From assembly GCA_947478925.1 (NCBI GenBank), contig CANJXY010000004.1, positions 1-62,645 of the forward strand: a stretch of DNA of 62,645 nt, in the 5' to 3' direction. Origin of the DNA: Hyphomonadaceae bacterium. GTDB lineage: Bacteria; Pseudomonadota; Alphaproteobacteria; Caulobacterales; Hyphomonadaceae. This document shows, one piece after another, positions 28,525 to 34,729 of the stretch. Every line of letters begins with the position of its first letter. Within the stretch, counting starts at the first letter, position 1. The notes beneath the pieces were generated by a model. It did no database searches, was not told the origin of the DNA, and saw nothing but the letters and a program-made list of their open reading frames with translations. Made by a program: the position numbers and the translations under genes.

Positions 28525-29055
28525 ATGTCGATCTGGATCTGCTCTCTCGCCGCCGCCCCGCAGCTTGTCCGCCAGCTGCGGCCGTCGCGGGTCGTAAGCC
28601 TGCTCAGCCCCTACGACACCTTTCCCACGTTCGAAGGCTTCAGCAGCGAACTCCACCTGCAGGTGCCGATCCACGATATCGTCGATGACGTTGGCGACTG
28701 GCGCGCACCTGACCTTTCGGACGCCGAAAGCGTCATCAAATTCGTGCACCCTTGGGACCGCGCTGCCCCCATGCTGATCCACTGCTGGGCTGGCATTTCC
28801 CGCTCCACCGCCAGCGCTTTCATCACGGCCTGCGTCCACAACCCGGACGCCGACGAACACGAAATCGCCAAGGCCATCCGCGACGCCTCGCCGACCGCGT
28901 CGCCGAACCGCCGCCTCGTCGCTCATGCTGACGCCCTGCTCGGCCGCAACGGACGGATGAACCGCGCCGTCGACTCGATTGGCCGAGGTTCAGCCGCGAT
29001 GGAAGCGCAGGCTTTCTCAATCCCGTCGACCTACACGGCAGCACGCGGATCATGA
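28525..29055 (+). CDS. CX5R protein-tyrosine/dual-specificity phosphatase-like protein
   Basis: A 176-residue cytoplasmic protein with the phosphatase signature HCWAGISRS at 86-94 (Cys87 nucleophile, Arg93). The Asp-bearing loop is probably in HDIVDDVGDW near 50-59. It matches a group of short alphaproteobacterial DSP-like phosphatases. The stop codon overlaps the start of the Nudix regulator downstream (ATGA), which implies coupled translation. The substrate could be a phosphoprotein or a small phosphate ester; the nad neighbourhood makes a nucleotide-linked substrate worth considering. Confidence 0.83.
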   Translation: MSIWICSLAAAPQLVRQLRPSRVVSLLSPYDTFPTFEGFSSELHLQVPIHDIVDDVGDWRAPDLSDAESVIKFVHPWDRAAPMLIHCWAGISRSTASAFITACVHNPDADEHEIAKAIRDASPTASPNRRLVAHADALLGRNGRMNRAVDSIGRGSAAMEAQAFSIPSTYTAARGS

Positions 29056-30008
29056 CGGCAACGCCTATCGCAGTTGGCCTGTCTGCCGTGATCGTCGCCG
29101 CTGATGGCAAGGCGCCTTATGCACTGACCACGCGCCACGCCGATGGCATGGCAGGCCTGCCGCACGGGCGATTCGACCCCAGCGGCCACCGCACTTTCGA
29201 ACTCGGCCTGCGCGACTGGGTGCGCGCCCAGACAGGCTTCGAGCCCGGCTATGTCGAACAGCTCTACACATTTGGCGACCTCGGACGGGAGTTGCCGCAG
29301 GCCGAACTCAACGATGCGCCGACTGGCGCACGTCTAATCTCGGTCGGGTATCTCGGTCTCACGCCGGAACGCACCGACATCTCGGCCTTCGACGCCGTCT
29401 GGCGGGATTGGCACCGGCATTTCCCGTGGGAAGACCATCGCCAAGGCCGCCCCGCCCTCATTGCCGAAGCCATCGCACCAGCACTGCTCGCCTGGGCAGA
29501 CGCAGGGGGAAAGCAGTCCGCTACCCGCCTGTCGCGCGTGCAGCTCGCCTTCGGCCTCGACGATCAGCCCTGGATCGAAGAACGCACTTTGGAACGCTAC
29601 GAACTCATCTACGAGGCCGGCCTCGCCCCTGAGTCCGTCCGCGACAGCGGCCGCAAACCCGTGAAGGCGCCATCGGCTGCACTCGGCGAGCCGATGATCT
29701 CAGACCACCGCCGCATCCTCGCCACTGCCATCGGCCGCCTGCGCGGCAAAATCAAATACCGCCCTGTCGTGTTCGAACTGATGCCCGAACGTTTCACGCT
29801 TCTGGACCTCCAGAAAGTCGTGGAATCGATCCTCGGCCTGCCTCTACACAAGCAGAACTTTCGCCGCTCGCTCGACCGCTCGGGTCTCGTGGTCGGCCTC
29901 GGCCAATTCACGCAGGCCACCGGCGGCCGTCCCGCCGAACTCTTCCGCTTCCGTCGCGAAGCCCTGCGGGAAGGCCACGCCTCGGGCGTTCAGACGCCCC
30001 GCGGCTGA
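29052..30008 (+). CDS. nrtR: NrtR/NadQ-type Nudix-related regulator of NAD synthesis
   Basis: A 318-residue protein with an N-terminal Nudix-like domain (to about 150) and a C-terminal winged helix. RGKIKYRPVVFELMPERFTL leads to LLDLQKVVESILG and NFRRSLDRSGLVV, with the ending GGRPAELFRFRREAL. This arrangement is that of Nudix-related NAD regulators of COG4111, called NrtR in several phyla and NadQ in alphaproteobacteria. The canonical catalytic Nudix box (REUXEEXGU) is not intact, so it probably binds an NAD-related ligand rather than hydrolysing it. It sits directly upstream of nadABC, which carries two palindromes in front. It overlaps the phosphatase gene by 4 bp. Confidence 0.85.
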   Translation: MTATPIAVGLSAVIVAADGKAPYALTTRHADGMAGLPHGRFDPSGHRTFELGLRDWVRAQTGFEPGYVEQLYTFGDLGRELPQAELNDAPTGARLISVGYLGLTPERTDISAFDAVWRDWHRHFPWEDHRQGRPALIAEAIAPALLAWADAGGKQSATRLSRVQLAFGLDDQPWIEERTLERYELIYEAGLAPESVRDSGRKPVKAPSAALGEPMISDHRRILATAIGRLRGKIKYRPVVFELMPERFTLLDLQKVVESILGLPLHKQNFRRSLDRSGLVVGLGQFTQATGGRPAELFRFRREALREGHASGVQTPRG

Positions 30009-30083
30009 CCCACCCGGACTTCGCGCCTACATGGCGAACGATTCCTACTCGACGGAATGACCGTTTTGTGAGACAGTAGTTAT

Positions 30084-30096
30084 GCTCAAGTTGAGC
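30084..30096. promoter_or_regulatory. Candidate operator 1 for the Nudix regulator
   Basis: GCTCAAGTTGAGC is a perfect palindrome around a central G, flanked by TAT on the left and TTAAG on the right. It lies 117 bp before nadA and 76 bp after the regulator gene. Confidence 0.65.
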
Positions 30097-30154
30097 TTAA
30101 GTAGCCGCCGGTAACGCCTTTCCCTTGAAAGGCATTTTTTCAGGCCTACCTTAT

Positions 30155-30167
30155 GCTCGAATTGAGC
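30155..30167. promoter_or_regulatory. Candidate operator 2 for the Nudix regulator
   Basis: GCTCGAATTGAGC differs from operator 1 at two positions and has the same left flank (TTATGCTC). Its centre is 71 bp from the first, close to seven helical turns, so two bound dimers would face the same side of the DNA. Confidence 0.65.
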
Positions 30168-30212
30168 ACAAGGGCGATACCCCCGCCCCTGTCAGAGCTG
30201 GAGGGACCAAAG

Positions 30213-31355
30213 ATGGCCCGGGTTATCGAATTTGGACAAGGCTGCGATATCCCCGCAGCCCGCCGCCGCCCCTCAGCAGCCGAAGCGCGCGACCTCGCCT
30301 ACAATGACGAGGTCAAAGCTGCGACCGATCACCTGTACGCGCTGGTGAGGGACTTCATCACGCCGATGGAATGGCCGGCGGTCGCCCCGTTCGTCTTCCA
30401 CATCAACAAGCTCAAGGCAGCAAAGAACGCCGTCATTCTCGCGCACAACTACATGACGCCGGACGTGTTCCAGCTCGTTGGCGATTTCCGGGGTGACTCG
30501 CTCCAGCTAGCGCGGGAAGCTGCCCGCACAGACGCCAAGGTTATTGTCCAGGCCGGCGTCCACTTCATGGCCGAAACCTCGAAAATCCTCTGTCCGGACA
30601 AGACAGTGCTAATTCCCGACACGCGGGCCGGCTGTTCGCTGGCGGCCTCGATCACGGGAGCCGACGTGCGGCTGATCCGCCAGCGTTACCCCAATCTGCC
30701 GATCGTGACCTATGTGAACACCACAGCCGACGTGAAGGCTGAGTGCGATATCACCTGTACCTCGTCCAATGCCGCCCAGGTCGTCGAGCACATCGCCGCC
30801 GAATGGGACGTCGATACCGTGATCATGGTCCCGGACGAGTTCCTCGCCCGGAACGTGGCTGCCAACACCGACATCAAGATCATCGCTTGGGAGGGCCATT
30901 GCGAGGTCCACGAAAAGTTCTCTGGCGAGGATGTCCGCCAGATCCGTGAGGCACATCCGGGCGCGATTGTGCTGGCGCACCCTGAATGTCCACCGGATGT
31001 CCTTGAAGAAGCCGACTTTGCCGGGTCAACATCGGCACTGTCGAACCAGGTGAAGGAATCAGGCGCTCGCAAGGTCGTCCTCCTCACCGAGTGTTCGATG
31101 AGCGATAACGTCGCCGCGGACAATCCCGGCGTGGAGTTTGTTAAACCATGCAACCTCTGCCCTCACATGAAGCGCATCTCGCTGGAGAACATCTACGACG
31201 CGCTCCTGACGATGAAGCACGAGGTCACGGTGCCGGAGAACGTGCGTCTACGTGCGAAAGCGGCGATAGACGCGATGCTGGCGCTGGGCCCGCCGACACG
31301 CGCGCCGAACTTCAAGGTCGGCGCGGACGTCTACGCGCACGTCCAGCTGATATGA
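30213..31355 (+). CDS. nadA: Quinolinate synthase
   Basis: NadA condenses iminoaspartate with dihydroxyacetone phosphate to quinolinate, using an oxygen-sensitive 4Fe-4S cluster. At 380 residues it belongs to the longer class. Cluster ligands are expected at Cys127 (ILCPDK), Cys229 (WEGHCEVH) and Cys313 or Cys316 (KPCNLCPHM). Substrate motifs include HNYMTPDVFQ, VHFMAET and the TRAGCSLAAS stretch. The start at 30213 has GGAGGG upstream and lies below both operators; a longer frame would place operator 2 inside the gene. Its stop overlaps the next gene (ATGA). Confidence 0.95.
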   Translation: MARVIEFGQGCDIPAARRRPSAAEARDLAYNDEVKAATDHLYALVRDFITPMEWPAVAPFVFHINKLKAAKNAVILAHNYMTPDVFQLVGDFRGDSLQLAREAARTDAKVIVQAGVHFMAETSKILCPDKTVLIPDTRAGCSLAASITGADVRLIRQRYPNLPIVTYVNTTADVKAECDITCTSSNAAQVVEHIAAEWDVDTVIMVPDEFLARNVAANTDIKIIAWEGHCEVHEKFSGEDVRQIREAHPGAIVLAHPECPPDVLEEADFAGSTSALSNQVKESGARKVVLLTECSMSDNVAADNPGVEFVKPCNLCPHMKRISLENIYDALLTMKHEVTVPENVRLRAKAAIDAMLALGPPTRAPNFKVGADVYAHVQLI

Positions 31356-31834
31356 AATCTCGCCGACCGCTCCATCGTCTTGCCGCTATTCTCGGCTGTA
31401 CCGTCGCACTCTCTGCGGCGATGCCTGCTTTCGCGGATGATGTCGCTGGCGACTGGCTGTTCGACACCTCCAAATTCGCGGATAATGACTGCCAGATCTC
31501 GGGTCGCATCACCTTCACCCAGACGCCGGTGAAGAACACCTACACCTGCGTTTTTGAGAGCGAGCAAATCTGCGGCAGGATCAACGGCAACCTCTACATA
31601 AAGGTACGCCAGAAATGCACGGCACAGCGCATCGGCAAGCAGGTTGCGATCAAGACCGTGGTCGACAAGATTCTCGATCATCGCCCGAAGATTCCTTACC
31701 CCGCGGAATCTTATCTCGCAGACAATTTCATCGTTCAGCTCTCCAACAACAAGGCTGAGATGAACGGCTCGCACTATGACGCGCAGCGTCAGCTCAAAGC
31801 GCGCTTCTGGCGCGATGTCGAGCTGATCGGGTAG
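31352..31834 (+). CDS. Secreted four-cysteine protein inside the nad operon (paralogue 1)
   Basis: A 160-residue protein with a signal peptide ending in AFA-D (residues 26-29). The mature domain starts GDWLFDTS and has four Cys at 47, 66, 74 and 89, then YLADNFIVQL and a C-terminal FWRDVELIG. It is paralogous to the next gene: the four Cys, the G-x-W start, the YAADxF/YLADNF motif and the ending ELxG align almost without gaps. The start codon overlaps the nadA stop (ATGA), which points to coupled translation. It has no known family and no enzyme motif. A two-disulfide periplasmic fold is inferred. Confidence 0.8.
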   Translation: MKSRRPLHRLAAILGCTVALSAAMPAFADDVAGDWLFDTSKFADNDCQISGRITFTQTPVKNTYTCVFESEQICGRINGNLYIKVRQKCTAQRIGKQVAIKTVVDKILDHRPKIPYPAESYLADNFIVQLSNNKAEMNGSHYDAQRQLKARFWRDVELIG

Positions 31835-31854
31835 ATGGCCATGGCGAGGACGGG

Positions 31855-32334
31855 ATGAAGCACGCAGTTTCGCTCGGCATTCTCGCCAGCCTTTTTCTGT
31901 TTTGCACCAGCGTCACCTCGGTGAACGCAGAGTCTCCAGCGCCGTCGCCGGTTGGCGCTTGGTCGTTCATGACCAGCACGATGAGTGAGGGCTGCACGCT
32001 TTCCGGTTCGATGAACATCACGCGTAAAACCAACAAAACCATGGCCTGCACGTTCAAGGCTGTGTGGGCCTGCACGCAGGTCGCCCCCCGCTCCGTCGAG
32101 ACGGACCAGACCTGCACCGCAAAACAGTCCGGCAGCGCTGTCACCATCACCAGCAAGATCGCAAAAATCGGCAAAGTCACACCCGCCAACTACGCGGACT
32201 TCATGCGTGCCAACTACGCCGCCGACCACTTCCAGGTGAAGATCGACACCTCCGGCGATCGCATGGACGGGCTGTTCCATTCCTATGGCCAGGCGTCAGT
32301 GGTTTTCCGCAGACATCTCGAACTGGTTGGCTGA
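31855..32334 (+). CDS. Secreted four-cysteine protein inside the nad operon (paralogue 2)
   Basis: A 159-residue exported protein; signal peptide ends near VNA-E. Cys residues are at 47, 65, 73 and 87, nearly the same spacing as in the upstream paralogue, and GAWSFMTS, ANYAADHFQVKI and FRRHLELVG match its landmarks. Sequence identity outside these points is low, so the duplication is old or the pair diverged fast. It ends three bases before the nadB start, so it must be cotranscribed with the nad genes. The function is unknown. Confidence 0.8.
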   Translation: MKHAVSLGILASLFLFCTSVTSVNAESPAPSPVGAWSFMTSTMSEGCTLSGSMNITRKTNKTMACTFKAVWACTQVAPRSVETDQTCTAKQSGSAVTITSKIAKIGKVTPANYADFMRANYAADHFQVKIDTSGDRMDGLFHSYGQASVVFRRHLELVG

Positions 32335-32337
32335 CAC

Positions 32338-33864
32338 GTGGCAAACCGTGACATCCTCATCGTCGGCGGTGGCCTCGCCGGACTTTTCCTCGCGCTGAAG
32401 CTCGCGCCCCGTCGTTGCACGGTCATAGCGCTTGCGCCGCTGGGACAGGCAGCGGCTTCGGCTTGGGCGCAAGGCGGCCTTGCCGCCGCGCTGTCGCCCG
32501 AGGACAACCCCTCGCTCCATGCGGCAGACACCGTCGCCGCCGGCGCGGGTATCGTCGATCCCGTCGTCGCCCGCCTGATCGCCAAGGAAGGCGCGAACCG
32601 TGTGCGTGATCTGCTTGAACTTGGCGTGCCGTTCGATCGCACCGCCGACGGCGAACTTGCCTTGTCGCTTGAAGCTGCACACTCACGCGCACGCGTCGCG
32701 CGCGTCTCGGGCGATCTCGCCGGCAAGGCGATCATGGAATCGCTCACCTACGCCGTGGCCTCCTCCGCACATATCGAAGTGATCGACCGCGTGAAGGCGC
32801 TGGCGCTGCTGCAGGATACGAATGGTCGCATCGCTGGCGTGCTGGCGAAGGATGCGACAGGCAGGACGCTTGAACTCCACGCACGGGAGACTGTGCTGTG
32901 TGCCGGTGGTTCCGGCGGCCTCTTTGCCATCACCACCAATCCGCGTTCATCGCAAGGCGATGCGATGGCGATGGCTTACACCGCGGGCGCGTTGATCGCC
33001 GATCCGGAGTTTGTGCAATTCCATCCCACCGCCATCGACATTGGCCGCGACCCCGCCCCACTTGCCACCGAAGCCCTGCGCGGTGAAGGCGCAAAGCTGA
33101 TCGATCGTACCGGCCGCGCCTTCATGACTGACTACCACCCGCTCGCAGACCTTGCCCCGCGCGACGAAGTGGCCCGTGCTATCCACTGCGAGCGCGCCGC
33201 CGGTCGCGGTGCATTCCTCGATTGCCGCGCAGCCATCGGCGCGCACTTCCCGGATCACTTCCCTACGGTGTTTGAGACCTGTCGCTCCGCCAACATCGAT
33301 CCGCGCGAACAGCCCATTCCCGTCGCTCCGGCCATGCACTATCACATGGGCGGCGTGGTCACTGATCTCTGGGCGCGAACATCGCTGGAAGGCTTGTCGG
33401 CGTGCGGGGAGACGGCGTCTACCGGCGCCCATGGCGCCAACCGCCTCGCCTCCAACTCGCTGCTCGAAGCCGTCGTGTTCGCCGAGCGCGCCGCCCGCCG
33501 CCTGCGCGACTCCAACCTGCCCGAAGCCGGCCCAGCCACGGCAACTTCGCCGCCCGAACTCAACGAGCTGTCGCTGGTCGAACTGCGCAAGCGCATGCAC
33601 GGACAGGTCGGCGTGGTGCGTGATGCCCCTGGCCTTGGCGCAACGCTCGACTGGATCACAGCTGCCAAAACAAATGTCGGCCAGGCCCGTGCGCTTGTCG
33701 CATCGTACCTCATCACCGCCGGCGCCTTCGCACGGCAGGAAAGCCGTGGCGGTCACTATCGCAGCGACTATCCTGAACACGCCCCCCCTCACCGTACCTT
33801 CATGCGCAAAGGCGAGGACGGCCTTCCCCTGATCCAGCATTCCGCAATCGCGGCCGGAGCCTGA
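32338..33864 (+). CDS. nadB: L-aspartate oxidase
   Basis: NadB oxidises L-aspartate to iminoaspartate with FAD and hands it to NadA. It is a 508-residue member of the succinate dehydrogenase/fumarate reductase flavoprotein family. The dinucleotide motif IVGGGLAGLFLAL is at 6-18, the substrate-binding loop AAASAWAQGGLAAALS is near 39, and PAMHYHMGGVVTD and ACGETASTGAHGANRLASNS complete the FAD site. The start is GTG at 32338, three bases after the previous stop, and ribosomes may reinitiate from it. All catalytic landmarks look intact. Confidence 0.95.
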   Translation: MANRDILIVGGGLAGLFLALKLAPRRCTVIALAPLGQAAASAWAQGGLAAALSPEDNPSLHAADTVAAGAGIVDPVVARLIAKEGANRVRDLLELGVPFDRTADGELALSLEAAHSRARVARVSGDLAGKAIMESLTYAVASSAHIEVIDRVKALALLQDTNGRIAGVLAKDATGRTLELHARETVLCAGGSGGLFAITTNPRSSQGDAMAMAYTAGALIADPEFVQFHPTAIDIGRDPAPLATEALRGEGAKLIDRTGRAFMTDYHPLADLAPRDEVARAIHCERAAGRGAFLDCRAAIGAHFPDHFPTVFETCRSANIDPREQPIPVAPAMHYHMGGVVTDLWARTSLEGLSACGETASTGAHGANRLASNSLLEAVVFAERAARRLRDSNLPEAGPATATSPPELNELSLVELRKRMHGQVGVVRDAPGLGATLDWITAAKTNVGQARALVASYLITAGAFARQESRGGHYRSDYPEHAPPHRTFMRKGEDGLPLIQHSAIAAGA

Positions 33865-33865
33865 C

Positions 33866-34729
33866 GTGACCAATCATCTTCCTATCCCGCCTCTGCCAGA
33901 CGTGGTGATCGAGCCCTTGGTGCGGCTGGCGCTTGCCGAGGATTTCGGGCGTAGCGGCGATATCACCACCGACGCCGTCATTCCCGCCTCCGCGCGCATG
34001 AAGGCGTTGATGAGCGCGCGCGAGCCTGGCATTGCTTCTGGCTATGACGCCGCGCGCCTGGCTTTGCGTCTGGTCGACCCCCAGGCGACGTGGACGACGC
34101 TCACCGAGGAAGGCACCGCCTTTGCCAAGGGCGCGCCGCTCGTTCGCATTGAAGGCTCCGCCCGCTCCGTATTGATGGCCGAGCGCGTGATGCTCAACTT
34201 CATAGGTCCGCTGTCGGGGGTAGCGACACTGACATCAAAGTTTGTCGCCGAAGCTGCCGGCATGCATGCGCGCATCACCTGCACCCGCAAGACGACACCT
34301 GGATTCCGCGCTCTAGAGAAACGCGCCGTGCGCCTTGGCGGCGGCATCAATCACCGTCTGGGGCTCGACGATGCTATCCTGATCAAGGACAACCACATCG
34401 CAGCGGCCGGCGGCGTCGCCGTTGCGATGAAACGTGCTCGCGCAGCCGTGGGTCACCTGCGCGCCATTGAGATCGAAGTCGACCGTCTCTCGCAGATCGA
34501 GGAAGCCCTGCCCTTCAAGCCCGACGCCATCCTGCTCGACAACATGTCGACGGCGCTGCTGAAGGAAGCCGTGGCGCTCATTGCCGGTCGCGCCAAGACG
34601 GAGGCGTCAGGCAGCGTGCGCCTCGAGACGGTAAAAGCAATCGCCCAAACGGGAGTAGATTTCATCTCCGCGGGTGCACTGACGCACTCGGCTGTGAACC
34701 TCGATATCGGTCTCGATTATGAAGATTGA
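33866..34729 (+). CDS. nadC: Nicotinate-nucleotide pyrophosphorylase (quinolinate phosphoribosyltransferase)
   Basis: NadC joins quinolinate to PRPP, giving nicotinate mononucleotide, CO2 and pyrophosphate. The 287-residue protein has the family signatures LAEDFGRSGDITTDAVIP near 19, ERVMLNFIGPLSGVAT near 106, CTRKTTPGFRALEKRAV near 132 and GGGINHRLGLDDAILIKDNH near 152. VDFISAGALTHS lies near the C-terminus. The start is GTG at 33866, one base after the nadB stop. It ends the nadA-nadB-nadC operon and is convergent with the wall hydrolase, 6 bp away. Confidence 0.96.
   Translation: MTNHLPIPPLPDVVIEPLVRLALAEDFGRSGDITTDAVIPASARMKALMSAREPGIASGYDAARLALRLVDPQATWTTLTEEGTAFAKGAPLVRIEGSARSVLMAERVMLNFIGPLSGVATLTSKFVAEAAGMHARITCTRKTTPGFRALEKRAVRLGGGINHRLGLDDAILIKDNHIAAAGGVAVAMKRARAAVGHLRAIEIEVDRLSQIEEALPFKPDAILLDNMSTALLKEAVALIAGRAKTEASGSVRLETVKAIAQTGVDFISAGALTHSAVNLDIGLDYED

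Follow-up and report, generated by a model that had tools for sequence, protein, structure and literature searches.

The nadA–nadB junction

The DNA analyzed here, referred to as the window, is a 62,645-nucleotide (nt) stretch of the genome of a Hyphomonadaceae bacterium (assembly GCA_947478925.1, contig CANJXY010000004.1, positions 1 to 62,645). Two small genes, here called X1 and X2, lie in it between nadA and nadB, which encode enzymes of the de novo synthesis of nicotinamide adenine dinucleotide (NAD), and are followed by nadC (Table 1). An earlier note on this DNA had described them as two exported four-cysteine paralogues, the first overlapping the nadA stop codon and the second ending 3 bp before nadB, and all of this proved exact, including the coordinates and cysteine positions. 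The X1 start (ATG at 31352) and the nadA stop (31353–31355) are joined in an ATGA overlap, X1 and X2 are separated by 20 nt, and 3 nt separate the X2 stop from the GTG start of nadB (32338). Both proteins carry a Sec-type leader, as judged by eye. The mature part of X1 has cysteines at positions 47, 66, 74 and 89 and that of X2 at 47, 65, 73 and 87, with one extra cysteine inside each leader (position 16 in X1, 17 in X2). With X1 as a query against its own genome, X2 was found at 28% identity (E 1.9e-10), the sole other match having an E value of 0.32; on this similarity, we regard X1 and X2 as paralogues.

Among 161 distinct members of the family, 159 have a leader according to a simple hydrophobicity test; of the other two, one has a broken frame and one is truncated at the end of a contig. 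An artefact of open reading frame (ORF) calling could be ruled out, as the frames are conserved, are under purifying selection and occur in several genera.

Table 1. Genes and predicted operator sites of the nad region in the window
Feature	Coordinates	Strand	Remarks
X1	31352..31834	+	Exported protein, predicted eight-stranded barrel, four Cys in mature part; 160 aa, ATG start
X2	31855..32334	+	X1 paralogue, same predicted fold; 159 aa
nadQ-like regulator gene	29052..30008	+	Pfam NrtR_WHD 4.6e-21, residues 240-300; N-terminal part without Pfam Nudix match
NadQ-type operator box 1	30080..30100	.	TTATGCTCAAGTTGAGCTTAA; published consensus ttATRCTCannntGAGYATaa
NadQ-type operator box 2	30151..30171	.	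TTATGCTCGAATTGAGCACAA; published consensus ttATRCTCannntGAGYATaa
nadA, quinolinate synthase	30153..31355	+	PF02445 3.0e-109
nadB, L-aspartate oxidase	32338..33864	+	GTG start; FAD_binding_2 4.1e-76
nadC, quinolinate phosphoribosyltransferase	33866..34729	+	QRPTase_C 6.8e-58, QRPTase_N 5.5e-18

Distribution and genomic position of the family

A search with X1 of 41 whole genomes, its own included, gave a match at E<=1 in 24 and at E<0.01 in 22. In each of these 22 genomes all matches at E<0.01 share a single location, as a tandem array if there is more than one, and tblastn placed nadA before and nadB after them. In a profile survey of the order, the family was found in 118 of 398 genomes, 91 of them in the same GTDB family and 27 in others. 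Thus 91 of the approximately 94 Hyphomonadaceae genomes carry it, among the matches listed, and it is rarer in the sister families. Only three genomes of the family are without a match among those listed (G005, G015 and G394). The available DNA of G005 ends inside nadA; G015 and G394, which are small genomes (loci L156 and L165), have kept nadA and nadB with intervening DNA too short for an X gene. In G007, which is 73% complete, neither X nor nadA was found. A class-wide sample of 385 genomes yielded three matches, of which two were from Hyphomonadaceae and the third (L170) was weak and lipoprotein-like, with no nadA at the locus by eye. Finally, a scan of 84,980 species genomes with a query of the Hyphomonas/Henriciella type found 56 loci, in Hyphomonas, Henriciella and metagenome-assembled genomes (MAGs).

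The surroundings were inspected at 113 loci, made up of 57 genomes taken by handle and the 56 named loci from the scan; the two sets overlap by at least three genomes (L022=L093, L019=L137, L020=L143), and 63 of the 118 positives of the order survey lie outside the by-handle inspection. X is beside nadA and/or nadB in 112 of the 113 loci. Both flanks are present on the same strand, nadA before and nadB after, in 107, and in five (L013, L066, L102, L111, L146) only one flank is seen, at the end of a locus or contig. All 56 named loci are at nad genes; for two of them the sequence covers nadB but not nadA, and for one the reverse. In a set of 20 genomes, 19 have X at nadA, including 18 of the 19 that come from outside the family, and only the G389 copy is elsewhere. 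Most loci have one copy (61) or two (38), the remainder three (13) or four (1).

The X genes are therefore co-located with nadA and nadB, and since their position is conserved across genera, chance placement can be ruled out. The earlier note had named homologues scattered over other genomes as an outcome that would speak against a link to NAD genes; the homologues are instead at nad genes in 112 of 113 loci, behind NadQ-type operator boxes (see below), and the tie of these secreted proteins to the NAD genes is a lasting one. The same note had called the link obligatory; the word is too strong, as L156 and L165 keep nadA and nadB with no room for X.

Several individual loci deserve mention. 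The single locus with X elsewhere is L083, where a weak relative with two cysteines (L083:1471-1905, E 2e-6) lies away from nadA in the genome of another family; this distant copy could hint at the origin of the family. Four records titled Acidobacteria or Candidatus Sulfopaludibacter (L130, L131, L132, L135) contain a nad operon with X copies at 62-66% identity to a Henriciella one, and these MAGs are probably mislabelled. At L113 and L114, from Hyphomonas polymorpha and a Hyphomonas MAG, nadB and nadC are set apart by approximately 1.4 kb of additional sequence.

Predicted co-regulation with the NAD genes

Two palindromes, 71 bp apart, precede nadA in the window, and each agrees with 11 of the 12 core positions of the NadQ consensus, which was published for Proteobacteria including Caulobacterales (PMC5343134). 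In 86 loci the sequence includes nadA and no less than 150 bp upstream of its alignment; 84 of these carry a site with at least 10 of the 12 core positions there, and the two misses (L070 and L076) have split nadA alignments. A weak NadQ-type site between nadA and nadB was seen in only one of the 86. As a yardstick, the 62.6-kb window has seven sites with at least 10/12 positions, two of them before nadA. Throughout the 3.9-Mb genome, only the two boxes were found at <=3 mismatches of a longer pattern, with none for the reversed-pattern control; thus within 3 mismatches the boxes gave no clue to function beyond the nad operon. All of 51 family genomes have a NadQ site at <=2 mismatches, a count that is genome-wide and not tied to nadA, compared with 2/51 for the reversed control. 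Four of the 51 have one further NadQ-type site far from the main one, some of which may be due to chance, given the 2/51 of the reversed control. From this pattern, NadQ seems chiefly to serve this operon. Two of the four extra sites adjoin panD, encoding aspartate decarboxylase (PF02261), just upstream of it (L204:1941-1961 and L205:2002-2022), so that in some family members NadQ may also touch this second cofactor pathway that consumes aspartate.

Because the only boxes in the genome precede it, X1 and X2 can be counted in the predicted NadQ operon, as two of its five genes (nadA-X1-X2-nadB-nadC). The shared transcript is predicted from spacing, i.e., the ATGA overlap and the short gaps described above. 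The described NadQ regulon comprises nadA, nadB and nadC, plus nadD and nadE in Caulobacterales, and agrees with the locus in its operator consensus and in the NadQ-like gene upstream; exported barrels are not mentioned as members in the section on NadQ of that description (PMC5343134).

The regulator gene itself was labelled from its domain layout and the published description of NadQ (COG4111). Its product matches NrtR_WHD and AraR_C in Pfam, at the C-terminal end only, and has no Nudix match at E<=10 in Pfam; an NrtR-type winged helix at the C-terminal end behind an N-terminal domain unlike the Nudix domain of NrtR is the layout of NadQ. The label NrtR, suggested by the Pfam name, was replaced by NadQ because the N-terminal part lacks a Nudix match and the boxes fit the NadQ consensus. 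Two other gene calls need comment. The nadA start as listed falls inside operator box 2, and many nadA relatives align only from about residue 13-21 of the listed frame; the true start is perhaps the ATG at 30213. The name nadB is that of the earlier note and is based on position and length, not on a specific model.

Predicted fold and relationship to known proteins

X1, X2 and a set of 45 members had no convincing match to any Pfam or NCBIfam model, the only matches being oddities at E 0.008-0.1. No PHROGs or PADLOC model matched the family, a sequence search of the PDB gave no match at E<=1, and we found no mention of the X genes in the open-licence literature on Hyphomonas nadA, NadA/NadB operons and NadQ. 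The AlphaFold models of the mature proteins, with predicted local distance difference test (pLDDT) scores of 90.8 (X1) and 94.8 (X2), are eight-stranded barrels. The best structural match of X1 is a domain of quinohemoprotein amine dehydrogenase (1jmx; Z 13.3, root-mean-square deviation [rmsd] 3.0, 106 residues aligned), followed by designed barrels, OmpA, Cap15 and ToxS, and then by many GID4 entries. For X2 the best match is the designed barrel 6czj (Z 13.3, rmsd 2.1, 103 aligned). Its match to 1jmx is nearly as good (Z 13.2, rmsd 2.4, 103 aligned); a block of avidins starts at Z 10.9 (rmsd 2.5, 100 aligned) with the engineered streptavidin 4jnj, and ToxS (8u2f) is at Z 10.8 (rmsd 3.0, 118 aligned). 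Several of the solved neighbors are barrels that bind ligands, among them avidins, VtrC with bile salt, FABP, Cap15 and designed binders.

Calycins, including lipocalins, have an eight-stranded antiparallel barrel with a GxW motif in strand 1 and an Arg at the end of the last strand, and lipocalins proper have in addition a C-terminal helix packed on the barrel. The X1 and X2 models have such a barrel, and the motif is present in the family (G33 in 100%, W35 in 95% and R154 in 91% of the 161 sequences, weighted; X1 numbering). No helix follows the last strand in either model, and no Pfam lipocalin, avidin or FABP match was obtained for 45 members at E<=0.1 or for X1 and X2 at E<=10. Bacterial avidins (bradavidin, hoefavidin, streptavidin) have an eight-stranded barrel of similar size, but are likened to X by fold alone: identity to X2 is approximately 6-14%, there is no Pfam match, and no avidin is among the best 50 matches of X1. 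ToxS and VtrC share with the X proteins the GxW first strand, the Arg ending the last strand, the barrel and the export. They differ from X in that the X models lack a C-terminal helix, no ToxR/VtrA-type regulator is encoded beside the X genes, and there is no sequence match. With the modest Foldseek E values of their matches (see below), the models point to a class of barrel and not to membership in a family, and absence from the lists of fold matches does not exclude a family. X1 and X2 belong to an undescribed family of small exported proteins, predicted to be beta-barrels.

Conservation, cysteine patterns and selection

In the alignment of the 161 members, conserved columns alternate along the strands with neighboring columns that are free to vary. 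The conserved positions, in X1 numbering, are Gly33, Trp35, Phe37, Thr39; Tyr64, Cys66, Cys74; Gln87, Cys89; Asp124, Phe126; Gly139; and Phe152 and Arg154, and the conserved face is most likely the barrel interior. The cysteines occur in patterns that fit the pairs 47-74 and 66-89. Both pairs are present in 129 members; 19 lack 66 and have 102, ten have only 89-102, one has only 66-89, and two are truncated copies. By this pattern, Cys89 would change partner, from 66 in most members to 102 in 29 of the 161. The four-cysteine signature emphasized in the earlier note is therefore typical but not defining, as relatives in the same place have two cysteines or swap the disulfide partner; to judge from the alignment, it is common and not essential.

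The C-terminus is conserved to the last residue: of 180 copies, 155 end in Ser, 14 in Gly, 9 in Arg, and one each in Leu and Pro. All copies end in the same residue in 50 of the 52 loci with several copies (the exceptions are L071 and L072), and the 14 Gly copies belong to three paralogue clades and exactly six genomes. When last residues were shuffled over 11 same-genus multi-copy loci, full concordance was obtained in 0 of 20000 trials, a test that ignores relatedness. The six Gly genomes are not a clade in a tree of nadA plus nadB, which is poorly resolved in that part, and the Ser/Gly change may have arisen twice or been reversed. We considered whether the Ser could be a by-product of an overlap of stop and start codons (TCATGA), and rejected this as the whole cause: Ser is encoded by TCA, TCG, TCC, TCT and AGC, Gly by GGA, GGG and GGC, and the stops differ, with and without an overlap. 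Because the codons vary, the constraint on the last residue seems to act at the level of the protein and to be common to the paralogues. The C-terminal tail itself has low confidence in both AlphaFold models. It recalls bradavidin and hoefavidin, in which the C-terminal tail occupies the binding site as an intrinsic ligand (PMC5398887), and by analogy the X tails may plug their own or sister barrels.

The ratio of nonsynonymous to synonymous substitution rates (dN/dS) in same-genus pairs was 0.04-0.20 for X1 and 0.21-0.54 for X2, compared with 0.03-0.16 for nadA and nadB, with one pair at 0.22; in wider pairs synonymous distances reach about 1, near saturation, and the ratio is rough there. 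On these values the X genes are maintained under purifying selection, which is more relaxed for X2 than for X1.

Possible functions of the X barrels

The link between X and NAD is well supported as a genomic association with predicted co-regulation. For the regulation, function and ligand of the X proteins, we infer the following. The reading that we favor, tentatively, is that the barrels are made together with the enzymes of the NadQ-controlled nadA-X-nadB-nadC operon and handle a pyridine of the pathway, most likely quinolinate. When the cell needs NAD, NadQ would derepress the operon, and the barrels would reach the envelope while the de novo enzymes are being made. They would bind a small pathway molecule in the conserved barrel interior, with the conserved C-terminal tail perhaps as an intrinsic plug of the same or the sister barrel, as in some bacterial avidins, and the bound quinolinate would be captured or retained for re-uptake, as proposed for the unrelated proteins Bug69 and Bug27.

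Quinolinate is our best guess at the ligand, because the co-encoded NadC can use it and because nicotinate salvage is missing. A NAPRTase/NAMPT gene (PF04095) was found in only one of 101 family genomes and in none of the 88 of high quality, so that in nearly all of them nicotinate or nicotinamide is unlikely to feed NAD by the usual route. The sole holder, G024, also has three X copies. Bug69 and Bug27, orphan periplasmic proteins of beta-proteobacteria, are linked to nadQ and nadC and bind quinolinate with dissociation constants (Kd) of 70 and 136 nM (PMC11452294). Like X, these Bordetella proteins are exported, tied to nadQ and NAD genes, orphans with regard to a transporter, and proposed to handle quinolinate (PMC11452294). 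However, they belong to the TctC family of solute-binding proteins (PF03401), whereas X does not, and X is encoded between nadA and nadB in a cell that has the full de novo pathway. A PF03401 search found no TctC/Bug protein in the genome of the window, and X1, X2 and 45 members have no match to this model. By analogy, X1 and X2 would be a non-homologous answer to the need that Bug69 and Bug27 serve.

A more elaborate version, which we consider improbable, is that the tandem paralogues assemble together in the envelope, where the tail of the sister protein closes each barrel and an NAD-pathway metabolite, most likely quinolinate, displaces the tails, giving a capture or sensing complex, built from a new protein family, that is induced along with NAD synthesis. 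If the tails are inserted reciprocally, this would account for the uniform last residue within a genome, with Ser in every copy of most genomes and Gly in every copy of six.

A number of points weigh against a role in quinolinate handling. On the conserved face, Arg154 of X1 is the sole basic residue that is nearly invariant, and such an Arg is usually structural in lipocalin-type barrels; from the conserved columns, a site for a dicarboxylate is not evident and no clear anion site is conserved. The structural similarities are weak (lowest Foldseek E values, 1.5e-3 with X1 and 4.6e-4 with X2), and the high-ranking ones include OmpA, GID4, RsfG, hemoglobin linker chains and the quinohemoprotein amine dehydrogenase domain, none of which points to a role with pyridines. 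Both the joint transcript and the binding of NadQ are predicted, and the title of a reference in PMC12421817 describes NadQ as Nudix-like and responsive to ATP, so that NadQ may be sensing something other than NAD itself. The operon encodes no transporter, and the genome encodes one of the PnuC type, so that a riboside route may exist besides quinolinate. PnuC was found in 52 of the 101 family genomes and does not track the family, some X carriers (e.g., G017) being without it; a dependence of X on PnuC was thus not seen. Lastly, inactivation of Bug69 in Bordetella caused no growth defect on quinolinate (PMC11452294).

Another possibility, in our estimate only a little less likely, is an envelope role unrelated to pyridines: the barrels could be, for example, inhibitors, carriers of lipids or signals, or partners of an envelope protein, and the cell would have coupled their dose to the NAD regulator or to the basal expression of the nad genes. 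Exported paralogues with a variable face and one to four tandem copies would fit such a role, as would the faster evolution of X2 relative to nadA and nadB, and two of the fold neighbors, ToxS and VtrC, work with regulators in the envelope and do not carry nutrients. However, copies outside the nad operon would then be expected, and there are none in the 22 genomes with matches at E<0.01 and only that of G389 in the 20-genome set.

It is also conceivable, although unlikely, that X entered the nadA–nadB junction once and, without being functionally tied to NAD, has remained because the operon is inherited vertically. The junction does take other guests. Outgroup nadA loci were taken from genomes without an X match, 19 in all, and in those listed nadA and nadB are close together or have another guest between them. 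The guest is an M50 peptidase (PF02163, 6.4e-10) in L151, from another family of the order, a similar ORF in two relatives (L152 and L162), and an unrelated ORF without a Pfam match in L155. Synteny is also strong in general, with nadC closely after nadB in nearly all named loci that have both genes in reach, and the two small genomes without the family keep the operon. Against such hitch-hiking, X is under purifying selection and its duplicates have stayed in the operon (all listed matches at E<0.01 except the single G389 copy); moreover, a homologue of the regulator was not found beside nadA in the 56 named loci, with flanks mostly of about 2.7 kb upstream, whereas X is present there. The suggestion of the earlier note that X is an unrelated insertion kept in the transcript is thus less likely, with the reservation that an operon passed on vertically would hold its genes together as well.

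A carrier for nicotinate or nicotinamide salvage, the first of which the earlier note had also proposed, would fit the export and the NadQ-type boxes, but is very improbable and largely refuted by the near absence of PF04095 from the family genomes.

NAD synthesis is regarded as wholly cytosolic. Yet in almost an entire bacterial family the NadA/NadB/NadC operon contains genes for exported proteins with a predicted barrel fold, apparently under the same switch, and this suggests an unexpected envelope side to NAD supply, served by proteins that no Pfam or NCBIfam model matched in this analysis. If the barrels do bind quinolinate or another intermediate, it would mean that cells with a full de novo pathway also manage a metabolite of that pathway outside the cytosol.

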